A stretch of 34,753 bases of DNA from Longimicrobiaceae bacterium. GTDB taxonomy: Bacteria > Gemmatimonadota > Gemmatimonadetes > Longimicrobiales > Longimicrobiaceae. Location of the stretch: the NCBI GenBank assembly GCA_035696245.1, contig DASRQW010000238.1, forward strand, positions 1 to 34,753, given 5' to 3'. The position numbers were made by a program, and so were the translations under genes. The notes beneath the pieces were generated by a model. That model was given only the letters and a program-made list of their open reading frames with translations. It ran no database searches and was not told the DNA's origin. Shown one piece after another: positions 6,166-10,729 of this stretch (positions are counted from its first letter, which is position 1; every line of letters starts with the position of its first letter).

Positions 6166-7566
6166 TCAGACCACGGCGCGCATCGGGGCCGGGGCGGGCT
6201 CGTCCACGCTTGCGGGCGCCCCGAGGTCGGACGAGCGGAGGAGGCGGCTGGTGACCGCGCCGGCCGTCATCGCGCCGTTGACGTTGATGGCGGTGCGCCC
6301 CATGTCGATCAGCGGCTCGATGGAGATGAGCAGCCCCGCGAGCGCCACGGGCAGGTTCATGGCCGACAGCACCACGATGGCAGCAAACGTGGCGCCGCCG
6401 CCCACCCCCGCGATGCCGAACGAGCCCAGCGTGACCACCAGGACGAGCGTGAGGATGAAGTGCATGCTCGTGGGGTCCACGCCCGCGCTGGGCGCGATCA
6501 TCACCGCCAGCATGGCCGGGTACAGCCCCGCGCACCCGTTCTGCCCGATGGTGGCGCCGAAGCTCGCCGCGAAGTTGGCGATGGCCGGCGGCACGCCCAG
6601 CCTGTCCACCTGCGCCTCCACGTTCAGCGGGATCGTCGCCGCGCTCGAGCGCGAGGTGAACGCGAACGTCAGCACCGGCCACACCTGCCTGTAGTAGCGC
6701 CACGGGTTGACGCCGGCCAGCGCCAGGGCTGCCGCGTGCACGCCCAGGATCAGCGCCAGACCCACGTACGACGCCGCCACGAAGCGGATCAGCCCCAGCA
6801 CGTCTGCCGGGTCCGACGTGGCGACCACCTTCGTCATCAGCGCCAGCACGCCGTACGGCGTAAGGCGGATGACCATGCGCACCAGGCGCATCACCAGCTT
6901 CTGCACGGTGTCGATGCCGGCCGCCACGCGCCGCCCGGCCTCCGGGTCGCTCCGCCGCAGGCCCAGCGCCGCCACCCCCAGCAGCGCCGCGAAGACGACG
7001 ACGGCGATCATGGACGTGGGCCGCGAGCCCGCCAGGTCCGCGAACGGGTTGGTGGGGATGAAGGAGAGGAGGAGCTGCGGTACGTCCAGCCCCGCGACCT
7101 CCGTCGCCTTGCCTTCGATCACCGCGGCCTGCGCCACCTCGCGCGTCCCGCGCACGAGGCCGCCCACCTGGAGCCCGAACAGCCGCGCCATCCCGATCCC
7201 GATGGCGGCGGAGATGGCGGTGGTCACCATCAGCATGCCCAGCACGCCCGCGCCGATCTTCCCCAGCGCCCGCGCGTCGTCCAGCCGCGTCACGGCGGAG
7301 AGGATGGAGACCAGCACCAGCGGCGTGACGATCATCTGGAGCAGCCGCACGTACGCGCCGCCCACCACGCCCACCCAGCTCACCGTGCCCTCCACCGCCG
7401 GCGAGCCCGTGCCGTACACCGCCTGCATCGCCGCCCCCAGCGCCGCGCCGAGCACCAGCGCCACCAGCACGTTCTTCGACAGCGCCGCGCCGCCCTTCCC
7501 GCGCCGCGCCAGCCACGCGAGCGCCAGCGCGAACACCGCCAGGTTCAGCATCACCGCGTAGATCAT
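6166..7566 (-). CDS. tcyP: TcyP-like L-cystine symporter (DAACS family)
   Basis: A 466-residue sodium- or proton-coupled symporter of the dicarboxylate/amino acid:cation family with multiple membrane segments. The diagnostic stretch TSRSSAATIPLN at about residue 305 is the hallmark of the TcyP/YdjN cystine branch, whereas glutamate transporters have a serine-rich SSSA-type motif in the re-entrant loop. The length matches TcyP (about 463 residues). The C-terminal half keeps the second loop and a GRTAINVNG motif. Start ATG 7566 is supported by GGAGAG 5 nt upstream; earlier in-frame codons encode non-membrane sequence. The gene is preceded by a leader with a Cys-rich ORF and an intrinsic terminator, which independently supports a cysteine/cystine role. 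The branch assignment rests on remembered family motifs. Confidence 0.88.
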   Translation of the reverse strand: MIYAVMLNLAVFALALAWLARRGKGGAALSKNVLVALVLGAALGAAMQAVYGTGSPAVEGTVSWVGVVGGAYVRLLQMIVTPLVLVSILSAVTRLDDARALGKIGAGVLGMLMVTTAISAAIGIGMARLFGLQVGGLVRGTREVAQAAVIEGKATEVAGLDVPQLLLSFIPTNPFADLAGSRPTSMIAVVVFAALLGVAALGLRRSDPEAGRRVAAGIDTVQKLVMRLVRMVIRLTPYGVLALMTKVVATSDPADVLGLIRFVAASYVGLALILGVHAAALALAGVNPWRYYRQVWPVLTFAFTSRSSAATIPLNVEAQVDRLGVPPAIANFAASFGATIGQNGCAGLYPAMLAVMIAPSAGVDPTSMHFILTLVLVVTLGSFGIAGVGGGATFAAIVVLSAMNLPVALAGLLISIEPLIDMGRTAINVNGAMTAGAVTSRLLRSSDLGAPASVDEPAPAPMRAVV

Positions 7567-7683
7567 GGTCTCTCCAGGCGCTCTCGCCGCAGCGGCGTGC
7601 CATTCGGGGAATCGTGAAACCGGCTCTCCGGAGATGGAGTACGTCCGTTCGGGGGCGCCGCCAGAACCCGCGGACAACAAAAA

Positions 7684-7705
7684 GCCCTCCCGAAGAGGGG
7701 AGGGC
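7684..7705 (-). terminator. Intrinsic terminator (attenuator) in the tcyP leader
   Basis: On the minus strand GCCCTCCC and GGGAGGGC form a perfect 8-bp stem around a 6-nt loop (arms 7698-7705 and 7684-7691), followed at once by five T residues (7679-7683) and a further T-rich stretch. It lies 32 nt after the stop of the Cys-rich leader ORF and about 115 nt before the tcyP start, in the orientation that would stop transcription before tcyP. Confidence 0.85.
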
Positions 7706-7737
7706 CGGAACGGTCGATCGCGCGCTATCCGCTCGAT

Positions 7738-7830
7738 CTACGCGCGCGCCACCACGCGCGCCCGCCCACCCGACTCCCCCACCGGAGAGGCGCAGCGACA
7801 ACAGCAGGCGGAAGCGAAGATGGCGAGCAT
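7738..7830 (-). CDS. Cys-rich leader peptide of the tcyP attenuator
   Basis: A 30-codon ORF on the minus strand from ATG 7830 to TAG 7738. Residues 8-13 read ACCCRC, so codons 9-11 and 13 are Cys (TGC TGT TGT, then TGC). Two of them are TGT, a disfavoured codon in so GC-rich a genome. The ATG is the first one downstream of the predicted transcription start (about 43 nt), but no Shine-Dalgarno sequence is visible. The ORF ends 32 nt before an intrinsic terminator, and the next gene is a cystine transporter. This is the classical layout of amino-acid attenuation: scarce Cys-tRNA would stall the ribosome on the Cys codons and favour readthrough. The peptide itself need not have a function. Confidence 0.72.
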   Translation of the reverse strand: MLAIFASACCCRCASPVGESGGRARVVARA

Positions 7831-7879
7831 GGTCGGTCGGTAGATGGAATTCGCGCGTCGGATGATTCGATGCTTCCGG

Positions 7880-7909
7880 AGTGTAGCGGAAGCCGCGCGC
7901 CGCTGTCAA
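7880..7909 (-). promoter_or_regulatory. Near-consensus promoter of the tcyP leader
   Basis: On the minus strand a perfect -35 TTGACA (7904-7909) is followed after 18 nt by TACACT (7880-7885), 4 of 6 matches to the -10 consensus. The expected start is near 7873. It points into the leader peptide, the terminator and tcyP. No other gene lies between it and tcyP. Confidence 0.75.
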
Positions 7910-8290
7910 CCCGGCCCTGCGTCACGATTCACCGGAGCGCTGCGATGTCCGATCCTGGGACGCGGTTTCCCAGCGACGGACAGGCAGCGCGGCACCGCAT
8001 CTATCTAAGCAGTTGCAGCCCATCGCGTTGGCCGAGTACGGCACCGGGCACGGCATTCGCCCCCTGTCCAACCATCGGCAGAGGTCGTCCCAACCCTCCC
8101 GACTATCCATCCCCGACCGACGACAGACGCGATGCCGAGGCGCCGCAACGCCGGAGCCCATCACACGTCTCGCCCGACAACCATCGACGGGCAGTCGAGA
8201 AGCATTCCCCAGCAGCGATGATCCTACGCCTCCGAGCGGCCTGCTCGCGGCGTTCCCGGCAGAAGCCGGTCTCCAGACGGAAGTACTCTC
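7910..8290. other. Gene-free stretch between tcyP promoter and permease
   Basis: No credible gene is seen. One plus-strand frame is open from 8013 and ends with an ATGA overlap on the permease start, but its composition (Arg/Pro/Ser/Thr-rich, no hydrophobic periodicity) does not look coding. No clear promoter for the permease was found. Confidence 0.4.
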
Positions 8291-10729
8291 ATGAGCGCCA
8301 TCCCCGCCGTACTCCTCGACCTGCGCCTGGCCGCCAAGTCGCTGCTCCGCTCCCCCGGCTTCACCCTCGTCGCCATCGTCACGCTGGGGCTGGGCATCGG
8401 CGCCAACACGTCGATGTTCAGCATCCTCAGCGGATACATGCTGCGGCCGGCGCCGTATGCCGGCAGCGACCGGCTGGACCGCATCTACCGCAGCACGCCC
8501 GGCGAGCCCCGCGGCCCCGTATCGACCGCGGACTACCTGGACCTGAAGTCGGAGATGGGCGGCTACGGCGAGATCGCGGCGTACGGCAACTCGGAGATGA
8601 GCCTCTCGGAGCCGGGCCAGCCGGCGGAGATGGTGCCGGCCCTGCGCGTCTCGGCGAACCTCTTCTCCACGCTGGGCACGCAGCCCCGCCTGGGCCGCGC
8701 CTTCCGTGCCGACGAGACCGTTCCCGGCAACCACCGCGTGCTCATCATCAGCCACCGGTACTGGCAGACCCGCTTCGGCGGAGACGCGCACATCGTGGGG
8801 CGCACCGTGCGCGTGGACGGCGAGCCGCACGAGATCGTGGGCGTGCTGCCGGAGACGTTCAGCGACTGGCGGCACCTGAGCTTCGTGGACGTGTACCGGC
8901 CGCTCGCCCTGGATGCGAAGGAGAGCCGCGACCGCAGCACGCGCTGGCTCCGCCTCGTGGGCCGCCGCTCCGGCGCGCTGCCTCAGGCGCAGGCCGACAG
9001 CTTCATCGCCAAGTTCGGCCGCCGCCTCGCCGGCCAGTACCCCGTCGCCAACGCCGGAAGCTCGTGGCGCGCGATCCCCATCGAGGACACGTTCCTCCAG
9101 GCGAACGGGCCGGTGATGATCACCATGCTGGTCTGCCTCTCCGGCTTCGTCCTGCTCATCGCCTGCTCCAACCTGGCGAACCTCCTCCTCGCCCGCACCA
9201 TGGCCCGCGCGCGCGAGTTCGCCGTGCGCTCGGCCCTGGGCGCCTCGCGCCTCCAGGTCCTGCGCCCGCTGCTCGTGGAGTCGCTGCTGCTGGCGGCCGC
9301 GGGCGGCGTCTGCGCCATCTTCGTCGCCACGTGGACCTTCGATTGGCTGGCGGTGCGGAGCGCGGGCGACAACGGCGTGGGCGTCGCCCTCACGTTCGAC
9401 TGGCACGTGCTGAGCTGGGCCGCGGGCGCCTGCCTGTTCACCGCGCTCGCGTTCGGCGTCGCCCCCGCGCTCTTCGTGCTGCGGCTGGACCTGAACAGCA
9501 CGCTCCGGAGCGGTTCGCGCGGCAACACGGGCGACCGGGGCCACCAGCGCTTCCGCGATCTCCTCATCGTGGGCCAGTTCACGCTGGCGATGGTCCTGCT
9601 CGCGGGCGCCGGCATCATGGTGCGAGGGCTGTACGAGATGAACAACCGGCGGTACGGCTGGGAGTCCGCCCACCTCGTCACCGGCACCACGCTGCTGCCC
9701 GCAAGCGCGTATGCGGGAGACAAGGAGATCACCGGCTTCCAGCGCCTCGCCCTGGAACGCCTGGAGGCGCTGCCCGGCGTCGCCTCCGCCAGCATCTCGT
9801 ACTCGATGCCGTTCTTCGGCCTGGCCGAGCCGCGCAAGTACCTGGTCGCGGGCCGCCTGGCGCCGGTGCGCGGGCACGAGCCGGGCGCCGTCATCAACGG
9901 CATCACCCCGCACTACTTCGAGACCGTCGGCACGCGCGTGCTCAGCGGGCGCGCCTTCGACGCGGGCGACGGCGCCGCGTCTCCCCGCGTCTTCATCATC
10001 AACCAGGCGATGGCGCGGGGCCTCTTCGCCGGCGAGAGCCCGCTCGGCCGCCGCATCGCCCAGGCCGGCGGCGATTCCACGCAGTGGGGCGAGATCGTGG
10101 GCGTGGTGGCCGACATCCAGTCCGTCTTTCCCGAGCCGAGCGCGTCCAGCTACCAGCTCTACCAGCCGATGGCGCAGGAGCCGCGGCGCTTCAACGAGAT
10201 CGCCGTCCGCACCGCGGGCATCGCACCGGCGAGCCTCGTCGGCCCCATCCGCACCACCATGGCCTCGCTCGACCCGGACCTGGCTGTGCGCCAGCTCCAG
10301 CCCGCTCCCACCACCATCGCGCGCGCCAACTACCAGCTCGGCGTGCTGGCGAGCGTGCTCTCCGCGCTGGCGGCGCTCGGTCTGGGCCTGGCGTCGCTGG
10401 GCATCTACGGTGTCATCTCGCGCACCATGGCCCAGCGCCGCGGCGAGTTCGGCATCCGCCTCGCGCTGGGCGCCCAGGCGGGCGACATCACGCGCTTGGT
10501 GCTCACGTCCGGCGCCAGGCTCGCGCTCGCCGGCTCGGCCATCGGCCTGCTCGGCGCCTTCGGCATCACGCGCCTCATCGCGGCATCGTTCCCGAACATG
10601 CCCACCAACGGCGCCGCCGTCCTGGGCGGCGTCACCTTCCTGCTCGTGACCATCGCCCTCGTCGCCTGCTATCTCCCCGCCCGCCACGCCTCCAGGATCG
10701 CCCCCGCGGAGACGCTGGTGTCGCAGTAG
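8291..10729 (+). CDS. Duplicated MacB/FtsX-type ABC permease (ADOP-like)
   Basis: An 812-residue permease made of two MacB-type halves. The N-terminus has the pattern AAKSLLRSPGFTLVAIVTLGLGIGAN, a large periplasmic MacB_PCD domain follows (~50-240), then an FtsX-type membrane block (~270-400). A second periplasmic domain and a C-terminal FtsX block end with MAQRRGEFGIRLALGA and PARHASRI. This two-repeat architecture is that of the orphan permeases described mainly in Acidobacteria and also found in Gemmatimonadota. No ATP-binding partner is encoded nearby, so the substrate and energy source are unknown; related MacB systems move lipoproteins, peptides or toxins or act as mechanotransmitters. 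A GGAAG lies 7 nt before ATG 8291. It is a single-gene unit, convergent with the next minus-strand gene. Confidence 0.9.
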   Translation: MSAIPAVLLDLRLAAKSLLRSPGFTLVAIVTLGLGIGANTSMFSILSGYMLRPAPYAGSDRLDRIYRSTPGEPRGPVSTADYLDLKSEMGGYGEIAAYGNSEMSLSEPGQPAEMVPALRVSANLFSTLGTQPRLGRAFRADETVPGNHRVLIISHRYWQTRFGGDAHIVGRTVRVDGEPHEIVGVLPETFSDWRHLSFVDVYRPLALDAKESRDRSTRWLRLVGRRSGALPQAQADSFIAKFGRRLAGQYPVANAGSSWRAIPIEDTFLQANGPVMITMLVCLSGFVLLIACSNLANLLLARTMARAREFAVRSALGASRLQVLRPLLVESLLLAAAGGVCAIFVATWTFDWLAVRSAGDNGVGVALTFDWHVLSWAAGACLFTALAFGVAPALFVLRLDLNSTLRSGSRGNTGDRGHQRFRDLLIVGQFTLAMVLLAGAGIMVRGLYEMNNRRYGWESAHLVTGTTLLPASAYAGDKEITGFQRLALERLEALPGVASASISYSMPFFGLAEPRKYLVAGRLAPVRGHEPGAVINGITPHYFETVGTRVLSGRAFDAGDGAASPRVFIINQAMARGLFAGESPLGRRIAQAGGDSTQWGEIVGVVADIQSVFPEPSASSYQLYQPMAQEPRRFNEIAVRTAGIAPASLVGPIRTTMASLDPDLAVRQLQPAPTTIARANYQLGVLASVLSALAALGLGLASLGIYGVISRTMAQRRGEFGIRLALGAQAGDITRLVLTSGARLALAGSAIGLLGAFGITRLIAASFPNMPTNGAAVLGGVTFLLVTIALVACYLPARHASRIAPAETLVSQ

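Follow-up and report, generated by a model that had tools for sequence, protein, structure and literature searches.

A putative cysteine-sensing transcription attenuator upstream of the cystine transporter gene tcyP in a Longimicrobiaceae bacterium, and related leaders in Gemmatimonadota

The window analysed here is a stretch of 34,753 nucleotides from a Longimicrobiaceae bacterium (assembly GCA_035696245.1, contig DASRQW010000238.1, positions 1 to 34,753). On its minus strand lie, in this order, a promoter, a short cysteine-rich open reading frame, an intrinsic terminator and a transporter gene (Table 1). The transporter contains the SDF domain PF00375 (Pfam domain search, E = 5e-101), is 58–60% identical to E. 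coli TcyP over 88–98% of the protein, and is 70% identical to two orthologues, L005 and L006. E. coli TcyP is annotated as 'cystine/sulfocysteine:cation symporter'. Translation most likely starts at the ATG at 7566, where the alignment with E. coli TcyP begins, and stops at 6166–6168. With both the SDF domain and orthology-level identity to a characterised TcyP, the gene is, as judged by sequence, an orthologue of this L-cystine symporter of the SDF family, in line with an earlier sequence-only reading that had called it TcyP-like. Divergent from the tcyP element, an ADOP-family duplicated permease (TIGR03434) is encoded at 8291–10729 on the plus strand; its best plasmid matches are from Gemmatirosa kalamazoonensis (36% identity).

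Table 1. Features of the tcyP locus in the order of transcription (positions refer to the window)
Feature	Positions	Strand	Evidence
Sigma70-like promoter, TTGACA-18-TACACT	7880–7909	minus	sequence match
Leader peptide ORF, 30 codons, MLAIFASACCCRCASPVGESGGRARVVARA, stop TAG	7738–7830	minus	same place in L005 and L006
Sensor codons TGC TGT TGT CGC TGC (CCCRC)	7792–7806	minus	TGTTGTCGCTGCG invariant in the three tcyP leaders
1:2 hairpin, CUCUCC-GGUG-GGGGAG, 2 nt past the last Cys codon	7774–7789	minus	pairing in tcyP leaders and class
Region 2, antiterminator 5' arm (GGGGAGUCGGGUGGG)	7765–7779	minus	pairs with 7699–7713
Region 3, antiterminator 3' arm, overlapping the terminator 5' arm	7699–7713	minus	pairs with 7765–7779
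Intrinsic terminator, GGCCCUCCCCUCUUCGGGAGGGCU + UUUUGUUG	7675–7706	minus	conserved in L005 and L006
tcyP, cystine symporter gene, 466 aa	6166–7566	minus	Pfam PF00375; identity to E. coli TcyP and to orthologues

The promoter, with TTGACA at 7909–7904 and TACACT at 7885–7880, is the only sigma70-like site within 7000–10000, where 0.1 would be expected. It predicts a transcription start near 7873, which leaves about 40 nt of 5' leader ahead of the ATG of the leader ORF. The encoded peptide opens MLAIFASACCCRCASPV...; among 2000 dinucleotide-shuffled versions of the region, one contained an ORF with four cysteines in eight codons (p = 0.0005). Downstream, the terminator stem (7706–7683) is followed by a U-rich tail (TTTTGTTG), and tcyP starts more than 100 nt further on. 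These parts are as the sequence-only reading had described them: the promoter with its 18-nt spacer, the 30-codon ORF with cysteines at codons 9, 10, 11 and 13, and the terminator, which lies 31 nt past the ORF stop and not 32. The weak point it had raised, the lack of a Shine-Dalgarno sequence before the leader ATG, likewise holds in the window.

Is this arrangement a feature of tcyP in related bacteria? The gene is rare: of the order's 154 genomes only 3 have it, and of the 395 in our phylum sample likewise 3. All three orthologues in the order are preceded by a cysteine-rich leader and a terminator. The other two leader peptides read MFTHLACCPCCRC... and MTIAYACCCCCRC...; all three leaders (MLAIFASACCCRCASPV..., MFTHLACCPCCRCGAPP... 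and MTIAYACCCCCRCGAPP...) are followed by UAG at the same place, and all three terminators have the form GGC(C/U)CUCCCC.../GGGAGGGC. Absence of either the Cys-rich ORF or the terminator from relatives had been named beforehand as evidence against an attenuator, and both other orthologues have both features. The 1:2 hairpin, the antiterminator and the terminator occupy homologous columns in the three leaders. The hairpin is 100% paired, with one position varying between UA, GC and GU, and in the antiterminator 95% of cells are paired, compared with 50–64% when the register is slid. With three sequences, shuffle controls of these hairpin and antiterminator counts were not decisive alone. The minimum-energy fold is the antiterminator in L006, and the 1:2 hairpin plus terminator in L005. 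For the window leader alone the RNA fold z-score is weak (−1.2), and neither the window nor 11 related loci gave an Rfam match above the gathering score, T-boxes included.

Outside the phylum we looked for the same layout upstream of more distant homologues. No Cys run precedes tcyP in E. coli or the distant homologues of Leptotrichia. The TcyP of the gammaproteobacterium Terasakiispira papahanaumokuakeensis (L007) is 69% identical to that of the window, as near as the orthologues within the phylum, yet it has no leader: upstream lies one ORF with three cysteines in eight codons, without such a leader-terminator layout on inspection. We think that tcyP has probably been exchanged horizontally, and that the attenuator belongs to the phylum that received the gene.

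To find further copies, a covariance model of the three tcyP leaders (R1) was used to search 395 genomes of the phylum. It replaced a simple Cys-block pattern, dropped because its matches were mostly of the form CTGCTGCTGTCGCTGCG, apparently coding sequence. R1 matched before metY, which encodes O-acetylhomoserine sulfhydrylase (TIGR01326), and before an ATP-grasp gene; a second copy of the element precedes the ATP-grasp gene in the window's own genome. Three low-scoring matches (L078, L079 and L082) have no leader, look like coding sequence and were rejected. The metY and ATP-grasp loci were then collected by protein search regardless of leaders. As a caution, the families had first come to notice through R1, but all counts come from the orthology searches. 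A Cys/Met-rich ORF with a terminator is present in 46 of the 63 tcyP, metY and ATP-grasp upstream regions, as against 2 in antisense and 0.4 in shuffled controls. By family, this holds for 28/30 ATP-grasp regions, 3/3 tcyP regions and 15/30 metY regions, the other 15 metY regions lacking the full combination of ORF and terminator. Cys runs are present in 26 of 30 ATP-grasp regions (5 in antisense). On this comparison, the window element is one of a phylum-wide class. In nearly every locus (L113–L142, L143, L148) the ATP-grasp gene, which is RimK-like, is followed by an LLM monooxygenase close to SfnG/SsuD; this neighbour suggests that the pair is a candidate organosulfur-scavenging pathway.

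The class also allowed us to examine the alternative structures on a broader basis. An alignment of 26 members gives 87% pairing for the 1:2 hairpin, and 0 of 500 shuffles reached as high a pairing or covariation score. The class-wide antiterminator register is 83.5% paired, compared with at most 74% when slid, with moderate support from shuffles (18–94 of 500). In 17 of 47 members, where about 2.4 would be expected, the duplex between region 2 and the terminator arm is better than in shuffles at p ≤ 0.05 (mean z −1.5). In the window, whose sequence is very GC-rich, this duplex taken alone is no better than with a shuffled region 2 (z = 0.05), so that support for it comes from the relatives. 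When a ribosome is placed at the last sensor codon, pre-pairing of the terminator 5' arm is 0.76, compared with 0.61 for shuffled region 2; the difference is seen in 43/47 members (Wilcoxon p = 5e-10).

How would such an element work? When cysteine is plentiful, the ribosome would pass CCCRC and reach the UAG, where it would cover or disrupt region 2; with region 2 blocked, the terminator would fold and transcription would end before tcyP. When charged Cys-tRNA is scarce, a ribosome stalled on the Cys codons would mask region 1, the 5' arm of the 1:2 hairpin. The freed region 2 could then pair with the terminator 5' arm, RNA polymerase would continue, and the cystine transporter would be made. 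In silico, the window terminator forms with a probability of 0.98 if no ribosome is present. A stall at the first Cys codon lowers this to 0.01, whereas a ribosome at the last Cys codon leaves it at 0.90 and one at the stop at 0.96. Since the terminator still prevails when the ribosome has reached the last Cys codon, a simple equilibrium model accounts for antitermination only if stalling occurs early in the run. The locus thus appears to have what defines a trp-type attenuator: an ORF in which codons for the amino acid handled by the downstream gene are abundant, an intrinsic terminator between the two, and an antiterminator that is predicted to exclude the terminator and to be freed by a stall at the sensor codons. 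From this layout we infer translation of the leader, ribosome stalling and cysteine-dependent termination, and we put the probability that the tcyP element is a trp-type, ribosome-mediated transcription attenuator sensing Cys-tRNA at roughly nine in ten. Points that weigh against it are the lack of a Shine-Dalgarno sequence before the leader ATG, the predicted start that is not leaderless, the small number of tcyP examples (three in the genomes searched) and the metY regions without the full ORF-terminator combination. The sequence-only reading, a probable cysteine attenuator, is right and understated: it covered one locus, whereas the element is one of a phylum-wide class. The leader and terminator recur at all three tcyP orthologues, with a homologous antiterminator in each.

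Could the leader instead act on translation? Polycysteine leaderless ORFs are cysteine-responsive attenuators in mycobacteria (doi 10.1111/mmi.14498, as cited in PMC13236596), and an analogous leader here would control the tcyP ribosome-binding site, with the hairpin and U tract incidental. In its favour, six leaders of the class appear leaderless. A Shine-Dalgarno-like motif precedes 6 of 47 leader ATGs and is missing from 41, making its absence in the window a feature of the class. Good promoters precede 13 of the 47 members, the window among them (0.47 expected in shuffles). In six leaders the −10 box ends 6–7 nt ahead of the ATG, where 0.04 such cases would be expected; this spacing implies a leaderless mRNA, and at least these six look leaderless. 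In the remaining promoter-bearing leaders the −10 box lies 38–69 nt from the ATG (49 nt in the window), and the window promoter itself predicts the 5' leader described above and not a leaderless start. Against control of translation, all tcyP loci and most other members have a strong, U-tailed intrinsic terminator separating the leader from its gene. Moreover, the alternative pairing that is conserved includes the terminator arm, and in the window tcyP starts more than 100 nt beyond the terminator. We therefore regard translation attenuation as very unlikely.

A second covariance model (R2), built from 26 leaders, all of them Cys or Cys/Met, was used to search 240 genomes. It revealed new targets: cysI, cysJ, a TauE permease gene, metX, a homoserine dehydrogenase gene, a ThrC-like/ThiS/JAB/ThiF operon, leuA and hisG. 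The cysI leader reads CCCCVCLC (L189, G244:C430:3500-8300) and precedes a sulfate assimilation operon of cysI, APS kinase and PAPS reductase; the cysJ leader is MCACCMMAPCM and that of the TauE/SafE permease CPLCCC. Methionine dominates in the metX leaders, MSMPMPMCMC and MRTIMSMTMRMMRMM, and in the homoserine dehydrogenase leader, MMMMMM. The leader of the ThrC-like gene is MCMCMCCM. At this locus (L187, G026:C5:1-3700) the ThrC-like gene is followed by genes for a ThiS-family sulfur carrier, a JAB metalloprotease and a ThiF/rhodanese protein, and a second ThrC-like locus (L188, G238:C144:28500-32700) is similar in layout by eye. The operon looks like one for a sulfur-carrier-dependent cysteine or homocysteine synthase, and the annotation 'thrC' may therefore mislead. 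Of two further R2 matches, L155 has no leader, looks like coding sequence and was rejected, and L169, before what by eye is a glutamate synthase gene, is doubtful.

The leaders before leuA (L180, L181) are rich in leucine, LLLGLLILPVLLL, and the one before hisG (L177) in histidine, LHHVHRHH. Neither residue could have been selected by those on which R2 was trained, which makes these leaders the best evidence for codon-specific ribosome stalling. Leu and His leaders on the same RNA scaffold suggest that attenuation reaches beyond sulfur genes in this phylum, and sensor codon identity matches the amino-acid pathway across the class. The parts, their order, their conservation, the mutually exclusive pairings and this class-wide agreement between codon and pathway can be read directly from the sequences and their comparison.

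The same leaders bear on a different proposal, in which the Cys-rich peptide would sense a signal other than cysteine through its thiols, for example metal or oxidative stress. Short Cys-rich peptides can bind metals, and every tcyP leader contains Cys codons. Yet the same RNA element has runs of Met, Leu or His before Met, Leu or His genes, indicating that codon identity tracks the amino-acid pathway, and the targets of Cys leaders serve sulfur uptake or cysteine and methionine synthesis; thiol sensing is accordingly very unlikely. Least credible of all is coincidence, in which the terminator would end some other transcript from upstream and the Cys ORF would have arisen by accident: spurious ORFs are plentiful in GC-rich genomes and the window antiterminator alone is not significant, but the Cys run has p = 0.0005 in the window, the arrangement is conserved in two relatives, and ORF plus terminator recur across the class at 46/63 against 0.4 expected.

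With its several targets, the class looks like a multi-target system for sulfur control in Gemmatimonadota. We think it fairly likely that leader-peptide attenuators of a single family, sharing one RNA scaffold and partly with leaderless uORFs, control much of the sulfur amino-acid supply as well as leucine and histidine synthesis in this phylum. If so, its sulfur part would comprise cystine uptake, sulfate assimilation, sulfur-carrier-dependent synthesis, homocysteine synthesis and organosulfur scavenging, and metY, through its mixed Met/Cys leaders, would combine signals from two amino acids. This suggests how the charging of Cys-tRNA and Met-tRNA could govern cystine uptake together with sulfate reduction and methionine synthesis, and it offers functional hints for the ATP-grasp/LLM pair and for the sulfur-carrier-linked ThrC-like enzyme.

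Most described examples of leader-peptide transcription attenuation come from Proteobacteria and Actinobacteria, and a few from Firmicutes (PMC2965389). In the literature we searched, we found no described attenuator in Gemmatimonadota; provisionally, the mechanism class is known, and the phylum, the targets and the shared scaffold appear new. With the trp/his/leu-type attenuators of Proteobacteria (Rfam leader families) the element has in common an ORF with regulatory codons, 1:2, 2:3 and 3:4 pairings, an intrinsic terminator and downstream genes for the same amino acid. Unlike these, it belongs to a different phylum, uses Cys and Cys/Met sensor residues, matches no Rfam family, lacks a Shine-Dalgarno sequence, sometimes has a leaderless start, and shares one scaffold among Cys, Met, Leu and His leaders. 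The cysteine T-boxes of Firmicutes also sense charged tRNA-Cys and control sulfur genes through premature termination, as proposed for the window element; they bind the tRNA directly and need no leader peptide.

For cysteine attenuation with an intrinsic terminator we found one precedent, itself computational (PMC8632094). uORFC-8-2, before cysS in Rhodobacterales, has tandem Cys codons in a short ORF followed by an intrinsic terminator, and ribosome-mediated transcription attenuation was proposed for it (PMC8632094). Cys leaders are thus known outside Actinobacteria, contrary to the narrower scope given in the sequence-only reading, whose remark that none was known for this phylum or for tcyP agrees with our search. 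Both elements combine tandem Cys codons with a terminator, and both rest on computation. uORFC-8-2 is alphaproteobacterial, has cysS as its one target and places Cys codons 14–15 within the first stem (PMC8632094), while here Cys runs precede uptake and assimilation genes and the hairpin follows the codons. In Actinobacteria, Cys leaders without terminators were predicted by Seliverstov 2005 (PMC1262725), and the polycysteine ORFs of mycobacteria were described by Canestrari 2020 (doi 10.1111/mmi.14498), their action being termed translation attenuation in PMC13236596. These resemble our class in the runs of Cys codons within a short ORF, in leaderless starts and in the sulfur genes that follow. 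The mycobacterial ORFs have no terminator (PMC1262725), act on translation and carry their Cys codons near the stop; the window leader, having a terminator, falls outside that group, and the elements described here combine terminator and antiterminator with sensor codons far from the stop.
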